Source of the DNA: Sulfurimonas sp. C5
Lineage (GTDB): Bacteria; Campylobacterota; Campylobacteria; Campylobacterales; Sulfurimonadaceae
Assembly: GCF_029872055.1 (NCBI RefSeq)
Contig: NZ_JARXNQ010000001.1
Span: 682,001 to 746,000, forward strand
DNA length: 64,000 bases
Reading direction: 5' to 3'
A program made the position numbers and the translations under genes. Numbering within the stretch: the first letter of the stretch is position 1; every line of letters begins with the position of its first letter. This document shows, in pieces, positions 30,647-39,072 of this stretch. The notes beneath the pieces were generated by a model. The model saw only the letters and a program-made list of their open reading frames with translations. It ran no database searches and was not told the origin of the DNA.

Positions 30647-31378
30647 CTATTTTAGAACATATGCGAGTTTTATTTTAAACTCTTGAGGAAATTCTAATAA
30701 AGAGTTGGTAACACTCACGGGAAAGCTGTCTTCAATCGCTGAAATTGTTGATTTCTCAAAAATGCTTTTCCCCTCTAATATCTCTATACCATCTACACCG
30801 CCGTTTGCCAATACAATGAACTTCACTGCTACATCACCTTCAATCCCACGTCTTCTTGCAGACAGAGGGTAATGTTTATTTTCATTAATTCTTTTAATAA
30901 GGTCTTGTGTAAATAGATCTAATTCTTTCTTTTTTACAGCCATCATCTGCTGAATCTCTTCTTGCAGTCTTTGCTCATCTATAGATTCTTCTTGTACTGT
31001 TTTTTCCTGTACATCTTCTTGCTCTTCGACAAATTCTTCTAGTAGTTCAGTCTCTTTCTCTTGAACTGCAACCTCGTTTATCTCAGGTTCTATCTCTTTT
31101 TTTACGATCTCTTCTTCAACTACTTTTGGCTGCGGCTTTGGTTTGTGCAGTACTTTTTTTTCTTTTTTAACTAGCTTTTTTTCTTCTACTTTTTTTTCAA
31201 TCTTCTCTTTTTTTGTATGACACTGTTGCTGGATAATAGAGAAAGCGACTGTTTTACTCTCTTGTATCTCATTAACTTCAGTACTTTCATCCTCAAGGTT
31301 CACAAAATAGATCCCCGATGCAATAAGTGAAGCATAAACAATGAATGAAATTACAAAAGAAGAAAAATATCTACGCAT
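30647..31378 (-). CDS. TonB-like energy transducer
   Basis: 243 aa. One N-terminal membrane helix (about 5-25) is followed by a long Glu/Lys/Pro spacer (about 55-150) that spans the periplasm. The C-terminal TonB domain reads YPLSARRRGIEGDVAVKFIVLANGGVDGIEI and ends ...EFKIKLAYVLK. TonB couples the ExbBD proton motor to outer-membrane receptors. It is the last gene of the receptor-exbB-exbD-polyferredoxin-RND operon and overlaps the RND gene by eight bases. Confidence 0.88.
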   Translation of the reverse strand: MRRYFSSFVISFIVYASLIASGIYFVNLEDESTEVNEIQESKTVAFSIIQQQCHTKKEKIEKKVEEKKLVKKEKKVLHKPKPQPKVVEEEIVKKEIEPEINEVAVQEKETELLEEFVEEQEDVQEKTVQEESIDEQRLQEEIQQMMAVKKKELDLFTQDLIKRINENKHYPLSARRRGIEGDVAVKFIVLANGGVDGIEILEGKSIFEKSTISAIEDSFPVSVTNSLLEFPQEFKIKLAYVLK

Positions 31379-34300
31379 CTTTTACTCCGCTAATATAGTT
31401 ATATAAAACAGGTACATAAAACAAATTAAGTATAGTGCCCCATAAAAGTCCAAATCCAAGACTGATTGCTAAAGGTTGAAATGCCACTGCTTGAGCCGTT
31501 GCAAAGAACATTAATGATGATAGCCCCACAATAGTTGTAACAGAAGTTAAAACAATAGGTCTCAATCTTCTTGAAGCCAGTTTGAAAATATCACTTTTCG
31601 TTTGTGCATTACGCAATGTTGCCATCATAATAATCCCATCATTGACAATAACTCCCGAGAGCCCTAGTGCACCAATGAGTGACGGTAAAGAAAGATTGAG
31701 TCCCATAATAAAATGTCCAGCGTATACACCTAGTACTGAAAATGGAATTACAGAAAGAACTATTAATGTTTCTCTGAATGAGTTAAACAGGTATAAAATA
31801 GAAATAAAGATCAAAACAATTGCTACTATAGATGCAAAAAACATCTCTATTTGCATAGTACGTTGTTGTTCCTGTTCACCTTTAAATCTCAGTGATACTC
31901 CTGGAGTATTTTTGATTTTTTCTAAAGCTGGTTTAATTTTTTCAAGTGCTTCAGATGATGTAACAATAGAAGGATCCACATTAGCAAAGACATAAAAGTT
32001 TGTTTCTCCATCTTCTTTAACTAGTGTTTCTAACGATTCTACTTTCTCAAAAGTACAGAGGTCACTCAGCTTGACATACTGATTTTTTATAAATACTTCT
32101 ATATTTTTAAACTTTTCCAAATCATCTTTGAAATTGATAGATTTAATCTTTACGTCTAAAAGCTCTTTACCGTCAAAAACAGTGGCAATTTTTTTTGAAA
32201 GATAAAGATTTGCAATGTAATTTCCAATATATTTTTTTGTAACTCCAAGCTCTTGTGCATAACTATTTAGACTTATTTTGATCTCATCTATACCTACTTT
32301 AACATTATCTCCGTAATATTTAATTCCTTCAACGTTAGCAAGTGCGCTTTCAAGATCTCTTACTGCCTGTAATGCTTTCTTGTGATCATCACTCACAACG
32401 CCTATACGGATATCTGCTTTTGCATGCCCCATCTTCTTTTCAACAACCATAAGATTTGAAAGATTATATTTCTTTTTCAACTCCTCTTTTTGAAGCCATT
32501 TACGTAAATCTTTAGAGATCTCCTGTGAAGATTTATCCCTGATGCGATCAGTGTCATCATAATAAAAACTAAGATATGGAGTGATAAACTTATCCATAAA
32601 ATTCATAGGTTTGAGTTTATACAATTCCAAATTTATATACCCTACATAAGGATACATCTCTGCCGTTCCTGTTGCCGTTCGTCTATATCCTGCCGTAGAA
32701 CTTACATGTTTAACATAAAATCTTTCTTTTTGAGAAAGTATCTTTTTTTCCAACTCTTGGATAATTGCCAAAGATTCTTCCAATGTCATTGTCGGTTGTG
32801 CTTTAAAAGTAATAGTGATTGAAGAAGTGTCAAAAGGTTGAAACATCTGAAACTTTGAATTTTTAGCACTAAAAAAAATCAATACAGGCACAACTATTAA
32901 AAAGACAGTGATAAAGCTTTTTTGATATTTTAATAGAAAATCTAAACTATTTGCATAAAGAGTATTGATTCTCTCCCATGAAAGTGTTTTTGAATTCTTT
33001 GACAAAGTATGTGATGCGTGGATTGGTAAAAATACAAAAGACTCTATCAAAGAAGCAATTACAAGTGCCGAAAAAGCGATAGGTATCAGCTGAATAATTT
33101 CCCCTAGCCTGCCACTGATCATAAGTAATGGAATAAAGGAAAACAATGTTGTTATTGAAGCAATGGTTACAGGTTTTGCCATCTCTTTTGTTCCAAGTAA
33201 CGCTGCTTCTTTTGGAGAATATCCTTTTTCAATATACTGCTGAATATTCTCACTTACAACGATAGCGTCATCAACAATTATACCGATAGCAATAAGTACA
33301 CCTATTAGGGAGTTTACGTTGATGCTATAAGGGGTAAAATAAAAATATATCGCTCCGATAACAAATGATGTAGGAATTCCCAAAGCAATAATAAATGCCA
33401 TACGAGCATTGATGAGAATTGAAATTAAAAACATGATTAATAAAATCCCAAACATAATGTTCGAAATAACAATATTTAATCTGTCTTTGATCACAGTAGA
33501 GTTATCCATTCGGATATCTAAAACTGCTCCTTTAATATTCAAAGTATTAACAAGTTTTTTAACTTGTTCGGAAATTGTTATTGCATTTCCAATCGGGTTT
33601 TGAGATACTGCCAAAGAGATAGAGTTTTTTCCATCCATACTTGCCAATGTAGAAGCATCTTCATATCTCTTTGTGATCGTAGCGATATCTTTAATAGTTA
33701 ATTGTTTATCCCCTATGTTAATTGTAGTATTTTCCAGTTTTTTTGAAAGTTGTTCTTCATTTTTTATAGAGAGAAAAAATTGCTCTTTTGCATTGTCAAT
33801 TTTTCCAAGTGGAAAGATATAAGAAAGTTCCGAGAAAACTTTAACTACATCATCTAAAGAAAGATCATAAGCACTTAATCTATCTTCATCAATAAGTACC
33901 TCATAATACAGATCTGAATCTCCAAAAATAGTTACATCAGAGATATTTTCGATAGTTAGTATTTTCGTTTTTAATTTTTTTGCCAAAGCTTGTAGTTCAT
34001 CGCGTGAAAGTTCCGATGAGCGTATAGAAACCTGCATAAGGCTTTTTGAATGTGCCACATTTCTCACAGTAGGCACTTCCATATCACTTGGCAACGTATC
34101 TTGAACCAGTGTAAGTGTATCTTCTACATCACGCAGTATAGTTTGTTTATCGATCCCTTTTTCAAGTTCTAAAGTAATCGCAAATTTACCCGGAGAGATG
34201 ATAGAACTTACATTTTGCACCCCTACAATATTTTGTACTTCCGATTCAATCTCTGCAACAGCCATTGTATTTAAACTATCTACAGATGCACCAGAATAGG

Positions 34301-34454
34301 CACCCCTGATCGTAATAGTTTCAGGTTCTATTGTTGGAGAGATCTCTTTTGGAATCTTCGTATAAGAATAAATTCCTATTGCAAAGATCAAAAAGAACAA
34401 TGTGTAATTCATTTTATAGTTCTCTAAAAAGAACTTTAAAAACCTTTCAAACAT
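31371..34454 (-). CDS. RND superfamily transporter (AcrB/HAE1-like) in a TonB operon
   Basis: 1027 aa, with the usual two halves of six membrane segments and two large periplasmic loops. The N-terminus (FFLENYKMNYTLFFLIFAIGIYSYTKIPKEISPTIEPETITIRGAYSGAS) and the helix 4 proton-relay motif IIVDDAIVVSENI are typical of the HAE1/AcrB branch. Such pumps normally work with a membrane-fusion protein and an outer-membrane channel, but neither is encoded nearby. It lies between a membrane iron-sulfur protein (13 bases) and tonB (overlap). The cargo is unknown; export of a siderophore, metal or toxic by-product linked to the receptor is an inference. Confidence 0.85.
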   Translation of the reverse strand: MFERFLKFFLENYKMNYTLFFLIFAIGIYSYTKIPKEISPTIEPETITIRGAYSGASVDSLNTMAVAEIESEVQNIVGVQNVSSIISPGKFAITLELEKGIDKQTILRDVEDTLTLVQDTLPSDMEVPTVRNVAHSKSLMQVSIRSSELSRDELQALAKKLKTKILTIENISDVTIFGDSDLYYEVLIDEDRLSAYDLSLDDVVKVFSELSYIFPLGKIDNAKEQFFLSIKNEEQLSKKLENTTINIGDKQLTIKDIATITKRYEDASTLASMDGKNSISLAVSQNPIGNAITISEQVKKLVNTLNIKGAVLDIRMDNSTVIKDRLNIVISNIMFGILLIMFLISILINARMAFIIALGIPTSFVIGAIYFYFTPYSINVNSLIGVLIAIGIIVDDAIVVSENIQQYIEKGYSPKEAALLGTKEMAKPVTIASITTLFSFIPLLMISGRLGEIIQLIPIAFSALVIASLIESFVFLPIHASHTLSKNSKTLSWERINTLYANSLDFLLKYQKSFITVFLIVVPVLIFFSAKNSKFQMFQPFDTSSITITFKAQPTMTLEESLAIIQELEKKILSQKERFYVKHVSSTAGYRRTATGTAEMYPYVGYINLELYKLKPMNFMDKFITPYLSFYYDDTDRIRDKSSQEISKDLRKWLQKEELKKKYNLSNLMVVEKKMGHAKADIRIGVVSDDHKKALQAVRDLESALANVEGIKYYGDNVKVGIDEIKISLNSYAQELGVTKKYIGNYIANLYLSKKIATVFDGKELLDVKIKSINFKDDLEKFKNIEVFIKNQYVKLSDLCTFEKVESLETLVKEDGETNFYVFANVDPSIVTSSEALEKIKPALEKIKNTPGVSLRFKGEQEQQRTMQIEMFFASIVAIVLIFISILYLFNSFRETLIVLSVIPFSVLGVYAGHFIMGLNLSLPSLIGALGLSGVIVNDGIIMMATLRNAQTKSDIFKLASRRLRPIVLTSVTTIVGLSSLMFFATAQAVAFQPLAISLGFGLLWGTILNLFYVPVLYNYISGVKDA

Positions 34455-34467
34455 ATATGTTGAAATC

Positions 34468-35904
34468 CTACCCTTTTACTTGAGGTTTCTTTGCAGTTTT
34501 ATGCTGCATTGAATGGTGTGAGTGTTTTGCCATACCGTAAGTTTTAAATACGTATACACGATATAAATTTACCGACAGAAAAAATATAATTAGCGATGCT
34601 GCGAAAGGGAATGCTACCATCTTTTTCATTTTAGTTGCATCAATTTTCGCTAAACGTTTATATAAAATCACAAGTGCCCAAATAATTGCTATCCATTTTA
34701 AAGCTCCAAAGATATGCAACCAGCTGTCACCTCTGCTTGCAAGCGGTGCCACATGAAGCGTCATACCTACAGCTTGTCCAAACCCTTCGGCAATTTTATT
34801 TGCCTCATGCGTAAAAAAACTCTCCAGAGTATGAGCGATGGAACCGATGATAAATAGCGGTGCATATGCATATCCAAGATCATAAAATACAGATTTAAAA
34901 TCTTTTTGCAGAATTTTTGAAGCCACATACATTCCTGCTACTGCTGCAACTACAGAAAAAATAACAGCATATAAAAAGGCAAAAAGTCCCACTGCATCCA
35001 ATGTTCCAAAGTTAATGTACTGTTCAACCCAGTGAGCCGTTTTTGTCCAGATCATATCTCCTGCAGCATTACTTCTGTTAATTCCGTGATGAAATGACAT
35101 AGTGACTGGAATTGCCGCTAATATTAGAATGTACGCCCATATCTCTGCCGGCATTGTTTGAAACTTTTTAAAGAGTGAAAAAGATGGCTTTGTAATTCTA
35201 AAAGCAACAGCCTCACATCCTTTTGTACAATCCATACATAAAGTACAGTCCGTTATTGAATCTCTTTTATCAAACGTAAACGGTTTCAAATTTTGCGGAC
35301 AAGCACTTGCACATTCAAAAGTTTTACAAGAACTACATTCCTCTTTATATGTACCAAGCCATGTAAAAGACATTTTTCCATACGCTCTCGTTAATACGCC
35401 GATAGGACACACAGATTTACAATAACTCATATCTTTATAAAGAAAATAGAGTACAAATGCAAGCACTGTCATCACACTAAACATAACAGCCGTACCTAAT
35501 GGACTTCTAAAAAGACCCGGATTAAGATAATATACACCCCACCAGCCGATCATCAAAATTCCAAGACCGATATATCTGTTTTGCAGCCATTTAGGCATCT
35601 TTTTTTGTAAACCGAATTTTGTAATGTATTTACCTAAAAAACCGTGTGGACAAATACCGCAAAATACGCGTCCAAGTGTCGGCAAAGTAATTACCATAAA
35701 CAGTGCCCAGAAGATTCCCCAAAATACTGCCCATGTGAAAAGATTCTCTTTTGTCTGATGCGTAAAGCCGTAATAAATTGCATAAAAAAACACTAATGAA
35801 ACTACGATGCGTAGTAGCATTAAAAAACTTTGATTTTTAAATAAAAATTTCGTGATAGCATACTTGAACAGATCGTTATTATCCCTTTTAATTTGATCAA
35901 CCAT
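34468..35904 (-). CDS. membrane polyferredoxin, NapH/CcoG-like 4Fe-4S protein
   Basis: 478 aa. N-terminal membrane helices carry the NapH-type motif VFCGICPHG and a later CKSVCPIGV. A cytoplasmic-type double cluster region follows: CSSCKTFECASACP and CTLCMDCTKGCEA, enough cysteines for two 4Fe-4S clusters. Three or more further helices lead to a His-rich tail (HSHHSMQHK). NapH, NosR and CcoG relatives move electrons across or into the membrane, CcoG for copper reduction. It overlaps exbD by eight bases, so it belongs to the TonB operon. A role in reducing an imported metal or chelate is a plausible inference, not seen directly. Confidence 0.8.
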   Translation of the reverse strand: MVDQIKRDNNDLFKYAITKFLFKNQSFLMLLRIVVSLVFFYAIYYGFTHQTKENLFTWAVFWGIFWALFMVITLPTLGRVFCGICPHGFLGKYITKFGLQKKMPKWLQNRYIGLGILMIGWWGVYYLNPGLFRSPLGTAVMFSVMTVLAFVLYFLYKDMSYCKSVCPIGVLTRAYGKMSFTWLGTYKEECSSCKTFECASACPQNLKPFTFDKRDSITDCTLCMDCTKGCEAVAFRITKPSFSLFKKFQTMPAEIWAYILILAAIPVTMSFHHGINRSNAAGDMIWTKTAHWVEQYINFGTLDAVGLFAFLYAVIFSVVAAVAGMYVASKILQKDFKSVFYDLGYAYAPLFIIGSIAHTLESFFTHEANKIAEGFGQAVGMTLHVAPLASRGDSWLHIFGALKWIAIIWALVILYKRLAKIDATKMKKMVAFPFAASLIIFFLSVNLYRVYVFKTYGMAKHSHHSMQHKTAKKPQVKG

Positions 35905-36298
35905 TTACTTCCCCTTTATGAGCTTTTTTTGTGACAATGCCTAAGTTTTTAAACTGATTGCTCTCTAAAATATCCAGAAGATATACAAAGATTTCAAACT
36001 CAGCTTTTTTATCACAGTTGATAGCTATTGCCGTATCTTTTTTATACGTCAGTAACATTTTTTCAAGATCTTCTTTGAGTACTTGTTGCTTATCAAAAAG
36101 AATCTCTCCACTTTTTTTAATAGTAATCGTAAGATTTTTCTGCTCTTTTTGCTTTTGAGCGGCAGAAGCATCAGGTAAATCAACAGGAATAATCCCTTTT
36201 GCTACAAAAGATGCCGTAGTAAGTACGATCACTAACAGTACAAGCATAATGTCTATAAACGGAACTACGTTTATAGAATCAAATTTTTTAATTTGCAT
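35897..36298 (-). CDS. exbD: biopolymer transport protein ExbD
   Basis: 133 aa. One membrane helix carries the essential aspartate (INVVPFIDIMLVLLVIVLTTASF), then a periplasmic domain with the ITIKKSGEILFDKQ pattern. It is part of the ExbB-ExbD-TonB motor. It overlaps exbB by 11 bases and the polyferredoxin gene by eight. Confidence 0.93.
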   Translation of the reverse strand: MQIKKFDSINVVPFIDIMLVLLVIVLTTASFVAKGIIPVDLPDASAAQKQKEQKNLTITIKKSGEILFDKQQVLKEDLEKMLLTYKKDTAIAINCDKKAEFEIFVYLLDILESNQFKNLGIVTKKAHKGEVNG

Positions 36299-36731
36299 GC
36301 TTTCTCTTTTGTTCTATATCCCACTTTGCAAGAATAACTTCTATTCTTCTTGTTAAATGGTTATAGAATACAATTGCAGGAATTGCTACTAAAAGCCCCA
36401 TAGCTGTAGCTTTAAGTGCAAGAGCTAATGATGTCATGATCATTTTTGCATCCAAATCACCGCTTTGCCCCATCGTATAAAACGTTACAATGATTCCAAA
36501 TACGGTACCGAGCAGTCCAATATAAGGAGCATTAGAACCGAATGTAGAAATAATGTTAATGTTATTCGTTACGGCAATTTCAAGTTCTTCTTTTGTTTCA
36601 TACAGCTCTACCTCAACCTGTTTATAAAATAACAGCCTTTCAATCCAAAACAAAAGTGCCAAAAAGCTCATAAAGCCTAAAACGCCGATTATTCCATAAT
36701 CAACAATATTTTTTATCAGTTCTATATTCAT
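36288..36731 (-). CDS. exbB: biopolymer transport protein ExbB
   Basis: 147 aa, on the short side for ExbB. Three membrane segments are present: near residues 15-30, in SNAPYIGLLGTVFGIIVTFY, and in LALALKATAMGLLVAIPAIVFYNHL. The last two include the family's conserved G-LGTV-GI and A-AT--GL-VAIPA-- motifs. It forms the proton channel with ExbD. It lies 12 bases after the receptor gene. Confidence 0.92.
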   Translation of the reverse strand: MNIELIKNIVDYGIIGVLGFMSFLALLFWIERLLFYKQVEVELYETKEELEIAVTNNINIISTFGSNAPYIGLLGTVFGIIVTFYTMGQSGDLDAKMIMTSLALALKATAMGLLVAIPAIVFYNHLTRRIEVILAKWDIEQKRKHAN

Positions 36732-36742
36732 CTCTAACTCTC

Positions 36743-38923
36743 TTAGAATTTAGCAGATAATCCCGCTAAGTATGTACGACCAGGATTTACAGTAAGTCCC
36801 ATATCTCTGTAGTCGTAAAGACCGTCATCGTTTCTATCTCCAGTTGCACGAGGCATCATATAATACTGCTTATCAAAAAGGTTCTCGATTTTTCCGAAAA
36901 CTTCAAGTTCTAAACCTGCTAATTTTGTATTATATTTTGCTCTTAAATTCATTAATCCATATCCAGCAACTTTAATTTGATTAATCTCATCTGCATATTG
37001 TGATGATCTATATGTTCCATCAACAGTAACTAAAACATTTGGTGTCACTTTATAATCTAATTCTGCATATAAAGTATGTTTAGAATTTCTCGGTACATAA
37101 TTACCTGATAAATTATATGTTCCTGCTACAAAAGGTCCAGTTACCGGGTCAGTAAGAACTAATTTATAACTGTCAAATCTTGTATATTTAGCATCTAGGT
37201 ATGTATAGTTAAATACAAAATAAAGCTCTTTTTTCTTGTCACTGTTTACAGCAAGTTCTAAACCTCTGCTTCTCATATCTGCATAGTTTCCATATGAAAT
37301 ATCTATACCAGGTGTCGGATCACTAACATAGTTACCACCGTTTTTCGTAATTGCATCTTTTCTAGTTAACTGAAATACTGATGCCTCATAAGAAAGTCCG
37401 CCAACTTGTTGTCTCAATCCAATCTCATAGTTATATGTTTTTTCAGAATCAATATTTAAATTATTTACATAACTTCCGTATGATGCAAGATCACCCGCAT
37501 AAATCTGTGATAAAGTTGGTACGCGGAAACCTGTTGAGAAGCTTGCGAAAAGTGTCGACTTTGGTGTCAAGGCATAAGTAGTTCCAGCTCTGTAAGAAGC
37601 TTCATTAAAAGTTTTATTCCAATTTTCCATAGTCTTATTATTTGAATAATCGTATTTAATATTGTCATATCTACCATTAAGAGTAAATGTCAGTTCCTTT
37701 GTTAGACCATATTTAAACTCACCGTAAACTGCATTGATATCTTCATCTGAAGTTGTATCACTTCTCAATGTTCCTACTGTATACGTCTTACTGCTCCATC
37801 CAGAACTGATAGTTGTATTAACACGGTCTTTACTTGTTTGGTCTGTACTATTTCTTGCTATATCAATCCCTAACATTCCAGCTGCAGAATTTCCATCCAT
37901 TCTATATTCAGATTTGAAGCCTCTTTGTTTCGTTTTTGCATAAGATTCATATAAATGGTCATCTCTAATTCCATCACCGTTAGAGTCAAATGTTCCACTT
38001 TGATTTTTTGTCTCATCAGTGTATTGATAAATTTGTGCCATAAGATTTGAGTTATTTCCGAAATCTTTTGAGTATGTTAAAAAGAGTTTCGTCAAATCAA
38101 TATCGTAATCCGTTGCATATCCAGTCTCACCAACACTAATAGGATTAGCTTCAACATGATTCAGGTATTCGCCAGTGCCAGAGTTATACGTCATGTAAGT
38201 AATAGAACCTGTATCATTTTCAAAACGTTTTGTTTTATCTGCACCGAATGTAATATCACTCGTATCATCTATATAGTATTGAAACTTTCCATTGATAGAC
38301 TTCGTCCAATAATCGGCATCTTCCCAATAACCGTCACTCTTCTTATAGCTTGCCTGTACATATGCGGCAAAATTATCCGTTCCTAGGTTATATGAAGCTA
38401 GATACTTTCTATATCCATAACTTCCTACTTCTGCCGTTGCAAAACCTTCATTTTTACTTTTTGGTCTTTTTGTAGTAATGATTACGGCACCTGCTAAAGC
38501 ATCGTTTCCATAAAGATAAGAAGCTCCACCTTTAATTACTTTGATAGATTCAATATTATTGATATCAATATTTACACTTCCTGCTCTTTCTTGTACAGGA
38601 ACACCGTCAATTACAATTGCAACACCAGGTTTTTCTCCCATATAAACTTCAGTAGCTACCCCACGGATATGGATCTTGTTTGAATCCCCCTCGTTTTTTC
38701 TAACAGTAACACCAGGTATAGTGTTCAGTACATCAGCGATATTTTCAGCATGAAATTCTTCCACACTTTCACCGCTAAGTGTCGCAGTAGAAGATACTTC
38801 CGTTTTTTTAGTTGCAAATTTATCATCAATTGTTGAAGATTCAACTTGGATTGTTCCCAAATCATTTGCTGATAAATTAAGTGCAATCGCACAAATAGCA
38901 GATAAATGTATATATTTTCTCAT
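36743..38923 (-). CDS. TonB-dependent outer-membrane receptor
   Basis: 726 aa. Signal peptide MRKYIHLSAICAIALNLSA, then a probable TonB box (LGTIQVESS, about 22-30). The plug domain (IADVLNTIPGVTVRKNEGDSNKIHIRGV; IDGVPVQERAG; ESIKVIKGGASYLYGNDALAGAVIITTKRP) is followed by a 22-strand-type barrel ending in NPGRTYLAGLSAKF with a terminal Phe. Such receptors import siderophores, cobalamin, haem or metal chelates. The substrate is not evident. It is the first gene of the six-gene operon that also supplies its own ExbB, ExbD and TonB. Confidence 0.9.
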   Translation of the reverse strand: MRKYIHLSAICAIALNLSANDLGTIQVESSTIDDKFATKKTEVSSTATLSGESVEEFHAENIADVLNTIPGVTVRKNEGDSNKIHIRGVATEVYMGEKPGVAIVIDGVPVQERAGSVNIDINNIESIKVIKGGASYLYGNDALAGAVIITTKRPKSKNEGFATAEVGSYGYRKYLASYNLGTDNFAAYVQASYKKSDGYWEDADYWTKSINGKFQYYIDDTSDITFGADKTKRFENDTGSITYMTYNSGTGEYLNHVEANPISVGETGYATDYDIDLTKLFLTYSKDFGNNSNLMAQIYQYTDETKNQSGTFDSNGDGIRDDHLYESYAKTKQRGFKSEYRMDGNSAAGMLGIDIARNSTDQTSKDRVNTTISSGWSSKTYTVGTLRSDTTSDEDINAVYGEFKYGLTKELTFTLNGRYDNIKYDYSNNKTMENWNKTFNEASYRAGTTYALTPKSTLFASFSTGFRVPTLSQIYAGDLASYGSYVNNLNIDSEKTYNYEIGLRQQVGGLSYEASVFQLTRKDAITKNGGNYVSDPTPGIDISYGNYADMRSRGLELAVNSDKKKELYFVFNYTYLDAKYTRFDSYKLVLTDPVTGPFVAGTYNLSGNYVPRNSKHTLYAELDYKVTPNVLVTVDGTYRSSQYADEINQIKVAGYGLMNLRAKYNTKLAGLELEVFGKIENLFDKQYYMMPRATGDRNDDGLYDYRDMGLTVNPGRTYLAGLSAKF

Positions 38924-38970: not shown

Positions 38971-38987
38971 GTGTTACATTAGTGTTA
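38971..38987. repeat. direct repeat GTGTTA x2 upstream of the receptor gene
   Basis: GTGTTA occurs at 38971-38976 and 38982-38987, 11 bases apart, in the 149-base gap before the TonB-receptor operon and about 50-65 bases from its start. The one-helical-turn spacing fits a response-regulator or dimer site. No Fur box is obvious in this gap. Confidence 0.3.
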
Positions 38988-39038
38988 ATTTTATTTTTTA
39001 AGAATGATTTAAAATAATTGTTTTTAACATATAAGAAC

Positions 39039-39064
39039 AATAAGAGAAATTAAATTCTCTTATT
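39039..39064 (-). terminator. terminator hairpin after carbonic anhydrase
   Basis: Perfect 10-bp inverted repeat AATAAGAGAA / TTCTCTTATT with a six-base loop, nine bases past the carbonic anhydrase stop on the minus strand and followed by GTTCTTAT. The stem is AT-rich, so its strength is uncertain. Confidence 0.5.
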
Positions 39065-39072
39065 ATTGTAGT

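Follow-up and report, generated by a model that had tools for sequence, protein, structure and literature searches.

A likely copper-acquisition operon in Sulfurimonas that joins a TonB-dependent receptor and its motor to a membrane polyferredoxin

We consider it likely that six adjoining genes in the window (the whole 64,000-nucleotide stretch of Sulfurimonas sp. C5 DNA that was analysed) form a copper-acquisition operon, which is probably induced at copper scarcity through an OmpR/PhoB-type two-component regulator and which combines import, reduction by a membrane polyferredoxin and an auxiliary RND protein. The gene order, its conservation in other genomes and a regulator box in common with copper genes are direct observations, and copper is, as judged from sequence comparison, the most likely metal.

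The six-gene unit and its proteins

Open reading frames and matches to Pfam and NCBIfam profiles give the order receptor-exbB-exbD-polyferredoxin-RND-tonB, read 5' to 3' on the minus strand (Table 1). The successive junctions are +11, -11, -8, +13 and -8 bases, which agrees with the sequence-only reading of six genes that overlap or are separated by at most 13 bases. The gene downstream of tonB is convergent, and upstream of the operon a carbonic anhydrase gene lies at a distance of 149 bases with an AT-rich hairpin in between; the unit therefore consists of these six genes. The hairpin may terminate transcription of carbonic anhydrase and is missing from our terminator scan because the scan requires three G-C pairs. 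We note that this neighbour is of the eukaryotic type (PF00194; 39073-39819, minus strand) and that it adjoins the operon otherwise only in two sister genomes (L039 and L040). As had also been claimed, the open reading frames and Pfam matches of the six-gene unit include no membrane-fusion or outer-membrane partner for the RND protein.

Table 1. Features of the operon and of the region upstream of it, in coordinates of the window
Feature	Position	Strand	Remarks
AT-rich hairpin AATAAGAGAA-ATTTAAT-TTCTCTTATT	39039..39066, ends approximate	-	Read off the sequence
Regulator box TTAACACTAATGTAACA, direct repeat, 11-base period	38972..38988	-	48 bases 5' of the receptor start codon
TonB-dependent outer-membrane receptor, 726 aa	36743..38923	-	Plug and barrel
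ExbB, 147 aa	36288..36731	-	TIGR02805 above cut-off
ExbD, 133 aa	35897..36298	-	Pfam above cut-off
Membrane polyferredoxin (4Fe-4S), 478 aa	34468..35904	-	Fer4_5
RND (AcrB-type) permease, 1027 aa	31371..34454	-	ACR_tran 454 bits
TonB, 243 aa	30647..31378	-	TonB_C above cut-off (Pfam)

The Plug, barrel, ExbB, ExbD and TonB_C matches all exceed their Pfam cut-offs, which places the unit among TonB-dependent uptake systems, and the operon ExbB also matches the NCBIfam ExbB2 equivalog model above its cut-off. In these families the receptor imports a ligand and the TonB-ExbB-ExbD motor energises it. Three receptor residues, His85 and Met95 in the plug and His616, which was assigned to the barrel, are invariant in 29 close homologues, among which there is no conserved cysteine. 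The best solved relatives found in the PDB search are PqqU/YncD, and in NCBIfam the receptor lies nearest to siderophore and haem receptor subfamilies, below their cut-offs. It does not belong with OprC/NosA, the known TonB-dependent copper receptor (PMC8610252): the CxxxM copper motif is missing, OprC is not among its PDB matches and it represents another family of receptors. For this reason we infer the copper substrate from the company and the regulation of the genes. The polyferredoxin is partnered by receptors from two or more families that share only about 20% identity and whose ligands may differ.

The polyferredoxin has 12 cysteines that are invariant in 37 homologues (Cys82, Cys85, Cys162 and Cys166; Cys190, Cys193, Cys198 and Cys202; Cys220, Cys223, Cys226 and Cys230), which we read as the ligands of three putative [4Fe-4S] clusters. 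The basic residues around them suggest that the clusters face the cytoplasm. The C-terminal half is confidently predicted to be a helical membrane domain (pLDDT 91.7), within which Met269, His273 and His358 are conserved. Structure searches with the entire protein and with its C-terminal half returned no significant solved match, and we make no claim of a new fold.

The sequence-only reading had called this protein NapH/CcoG-like, a label that suits the iron-sulfur half but does not extend to the whole protein. The CcoG model (TIGR02745, cut-off 316.7 bits) gave no match at an E value of 0.001, which led us to reject identity with CcoG, and the NapH/MauN model (TIGR02163) gave 30 bits against a cut-off of 213. 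The CcoG of this genome is encoded by a separate gene (C9:10494-11867, 465 bits). CcoG/RdxA/FixG is a cupric reductase in cbb3 oxidase assembly, as cited in PMC8267372. So far as that citation describes it, CcoG resembles the polyferredoxin in being a membrane protein with ferredoxin-type [4Fe-4S] motifs and a link to copper; the polyferredoxin differs in the conserved Met and His residues of its C-terminal membrane half.

The combination of [4Fe-4S] motifs in a membrane protein with a box common to copper genes is what would be expected of a Cu(II)-reductase-like protein. In one genome (G287) the box stands directly upstream of the polyferredoxin gene itself, and the longest homologues carry a Pfam NosL domain (55 bits, cut-off 24) together with a DUF4198-like stretch. 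From its linkage, its shared regulation and this NosL domain, we place the polyferredoxin as a putative copper-handling electron carrier. Outside the Campylobacterota, where the search covered plasmids, near-full-length homologues of 23-24% identity were noted on two haloarchaeal plasmids (L216 and L218), with neighbours that are either nickel-type ABC genes or a metal regulator and cation ATPases.

Conservation of the gene neighbourhood

The polyferredoxin is present in 62 of the 397 Campylobacterota genomes searched. Approximately 20 kb was read around nearly all of these genes, giving 60 loci for analysis, the window included. The gene run of the polyferredoxin includes a TonB-dependent receptor in 53 of the 60, TonB in 33 and ExbB in 31, and most of the loci with no linked receptor involve a distant paralogue, a broken receptor or the end of a contig. 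The linkage of the polyferredoxin to a TonB receptor, on which the sequence-only reading had staked its proposal, is far beyond chance. One locus (L070) has the exact gene order of the window with a polyferredoxin from another clade, which suggests cassette exchange.

The corresponding expectation for the RND protein holds for a close subgroup (56-79% identity), which occurs in 12 genomes including that of the window and lies within the polyferredoxin operon or beside it in all 12, but it fails for relatives at about 44-54% identity, which stood apart from the polyferredoxin in the loci examined. The RND gene of the close subgroup stays linked despite a rearrangement to polyferredoxin-RND-receptor in L051 and L052. 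It is nevertheless an optional part, as most polyferredoxin loci are without it. With no fusion or outer-membrane genes in the unit, the protein does not qualify as a member of a tripartite pump; a membrane-fusion protein query, run against the linked loci, found no relative there, although partners may be encoded elsewhere in the genome. Nor does it qualify as a CusA/CzcA metal RND, scoring 236 bits against a cut-off of 701 (TIGR00914). The close subgroup has conserved residues of its own (His135, Met140, Met273, Met675 and Cys800), which would suit the binding of a metal or ligand but do not prove it.

The RND protein could instead be a passenger, that is, an unrelated efflux permease which was inserted between the polyferredoxin and tonB genes in some lineages and is merely co-transcribed. 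The many polyferredoxin loci with no RND gene, and the location of its 44-54% relatives elsewhere, would agree with this. We regard it as rather doubtful, given that the close subgroup is retained at the operon in every genome that has it, even when the gene order has changed, and maintains its own His, Met and Cys residues.

A regulator box in common with copper genes

The box was found de novo by comparing the 60 operon upstream regions with 483 control upstreams. It is a direct repeat, TTAACA-N5-KTAACA, with an 11-base period, and precedes 39 of the 60 operons in exact form compared with 3 of the 483 controls (p ~1e-40). In the 54 core loci it is exact in 37 and found in 48 when one mismatch is allowed, the counts for the controls being 3/483 and 9/483, respectively. 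As the box was defined on these same loci, the independent test is the company that it keeps genome-wide. In position and form the box found here resembles those of OmpR/PhoB-type response regulators, which sit immediately 5' of the -10 element.

A search of 16 genomes, in two sets of eight, gave 86 sites, and the backward control pattern gave 33. The box is short and, judged by this comparison, chance may account for about 40% of the total. The second eight genomes were chosen after the box had been defined and showed the same classes of target gene as the first eight, the classes being assigned by sequence motifs and BLAST in the second set and by Pfam on part of the first. Among the 70 intergenic sites to which a gene could be assigned there were 11 OprC/NosA-type receptors (CxNRMDP motif), nine NosL-type genes and 11 other TonB-dependent receptors, seven of which are at least 35% identical to the operon receptor. 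The remaining classes were CcoN (three sites), NosZ (two), ExbB (two) and polyferredoxin, DsbD_2 and TonB (one each). PCuAC genes and response regulators are further targets, which the keyword filter had left as 'other', and the box also marks cytochrome-type genes. The OprC/NosA orthologues of these genomes carry the operon's own box. Low copper is the putative inducing signal.

Several sites deserve separate mention. On contig C3 of the window's own genome, an orphan OprC-type copper receptor lies behind a box (L113:8705-10729). Its six best PDB matches are all OprC and it keeps the copper-binding CxxxM residues (GACPNRMD) described for that protein (PMC8610252). On contig C1 a box leads an operon of NosL, an FtsX-type permease and an ABC ATPase (L213:4045-7478), although the genome has no NosZ. 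On contig C4 a response regulator and a histidine kinase precede a second ExbB-ExbD pair (L212:9048-11413), and this response regulator (L212:10724-11413) is tentatively the likely regulator of the copper box. In two loci (L155 and L132) a conserved box is flanked by a chorismate-mutase-like gene and a convergent one and lacks an obvious target in the correct orientation, possibly reflecting a small RNA or chance. Two further loci (L060 and L061) share a motif, TTGGCGACT...GGCAAGGAATGGCGACTAGCACC, upstream of the receptor, which is perhaps a repeat element.

It could be argued that the box marks a wider two-component regulon for respiration or redox control, comprising cbb3 oxidase and N2O reductase, and that the operon imports a corrinoid, a quinone-like compound or another metal. 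The sites before CcoN, NosZ and cytochrome-type genes are consistent with such a regulon, and the PqqU/YncD relatives of the receptor with another cofactor. However, OprC-type receptors, NosL and PCuAC dominate the targets and their common denominator is copper, so that we find this explanation quite unlikely. Supply of N2O reductase as the sole purpose was rejected, as no NosZ is encoded in the window's genome; long-form operons (described below) showed no significant association with NosZ (14/20 versus 16/34, Fisher p 0.16). The genome does encode a cbb3 oxidase and CcoG and, with NosZ missing, the oxidase is therefore the likely copper consumer.

Iron uptake is served by FtrD-type polyferredoxins (FtrABCD) and by PepSY reductases, and the receptor is nearest to siderophore and haem subfamilies, although below their cut-offs; yet acquisition of a ferric siderophore or haem, with the ligand reduced by the polyferredoxin, is very unlikely in view of the box common to copper genes, the NosL domain of the longest polyferredoxins and the lack of enrichment of the Fur consensus in the 60 operon upstream regions, which also led us to reject regulation by Fur. 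The box has a PhoB/PhoP-like form and some loci have Na/Pi cotransporter genes nearby, which suggested phosphate regulation; this was set aside because the genome-wide targets of the box are copper genes.

Larger sister operons and the proposed copper route

A longer polyferredoxin (750-919 residues) is encoded in 21 loci. In 20 of these it is accompanied by a double-cubane-cluster protein, a BadF-type activase and a second polyferredoxin, which is NapH-like, usually with a DsbD_2 membrane protein as well. In the remaining locus (L047) an antisense open reading frame breaks the gene run in simple gene calling, and proteins of the right length follow. The double-cubane-cluster protein scores 348 bits against a cut-off of 350 (NF040772), and its best PDB matches are 6eno and 7yyl. 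An annotated example is found on the 395-kb plasmid NZ_CP087125.1 of Sulfurovum mangrovi (L215), and one from a metagenome-assembled genome in Sulfurimonas sp. AUK128 (L004). In the plasmid operon the receptor gene is annotated as two pieces and another receptor lies at the end.

The double-cubane module is found in no short-form locus, and the window's genome has no match to the HGD-D protein, so that the double-cubane-cluster system is absent there. In the tree, the window and two sister genomes lie inside the long-form clade, with support values of 95/94 (12-row group) and 100/100 (27-row group). Loss of the module best explains the form seen in the window, and its lineage appears to have lost it. 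In the papers searched, we found no double-cubane reductase with activase in a TonB or copper context.

In the mechanism that we favour, the receptor, powered by its own TonB-ExbB-ExbD, would bring chelated copper into the periplasm. The polyferredoxin would then take electrons from its [4Fe-4S] clusters on the cytoplasmic side and deliver them through the inner membrane to a His/Met site, where Cu(II) would be reduced to Cu(I) and copper freed for periplasmic chaperones and cuproenzymes. By analogy with CrtA-CrpH, and with CcoG as cited, this would be the simplest reaction, with electrons presumably flowing in this direction. Finally, the RND protein, working without fusion or outer-membrane partners, might move the freed ligand or copper; this is the weakest step and is largely a guess. 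The import-plus-reduction model of the sequence-only reading, which had not settled on a metal, finds support for the most part, with copper as the probable metal. It is in keeping with the polyferredoxin-TonB linkage and with the constant linkage of the close RND subgroup, but less so with an RND gene that most loci do not have. More tentatively, the operons may represent a TonB copper route that relies on iron-sulfur electron transfer at the inner membrane to process the copper or its chelator, the full form being powered by ATP through the double-cubane reductase and its activase and the stand-alone RND protein disposing of the ligand, with the window secondarily reduced.

The closest known system is the copper import operon of Bordetella pertussis, which consists of the receptor CrtA and the membrane protein CrpH (PMC12914433, PMC13038864). 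CrtA is a TonB receptor for chelated copper that is induced by copper starvation, its inner-membrane partner is a proposed reductase and some crtA operons include ExbBD/TonB and PCuAC (PMC12914433, PMC13038864). Its conserved binding-site residues are Tyr130, Trp265, Glu337, Gln356, His358 and Arg395 (PMC12914433). Both systems follow a TonB receptor with an inner-membrane putative reductase. They differ in that the partner of CrtA is a haem protein of the PepSY_TM type, where the Sulfurimonas operon has a polyferredoxin, and in that CrtA-CrpH is regulated by CruR, with no RND protein or double-cubane module reported.

Copper uptake by bacteria is poorly known and few TonB-dependent routes for it have been described. 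The operon probably adds a further variant to these routes, in which the Campylobacterota use iron-sulfur carriers in place of haem PepSY proteins and supply their own motor. The full form adds an ATP-driven low-potential double-cubane reductase, a combination that is not described in the papers searched. The regulator box makes the copper regulon of these bacteria predictable. To our knowledge, no physiological role has been established for the double-cubane reductase class; if copper uptake in the full form is indeed powered by ATP, this would give the class a physiological setting and would define a new type of metal uptake.
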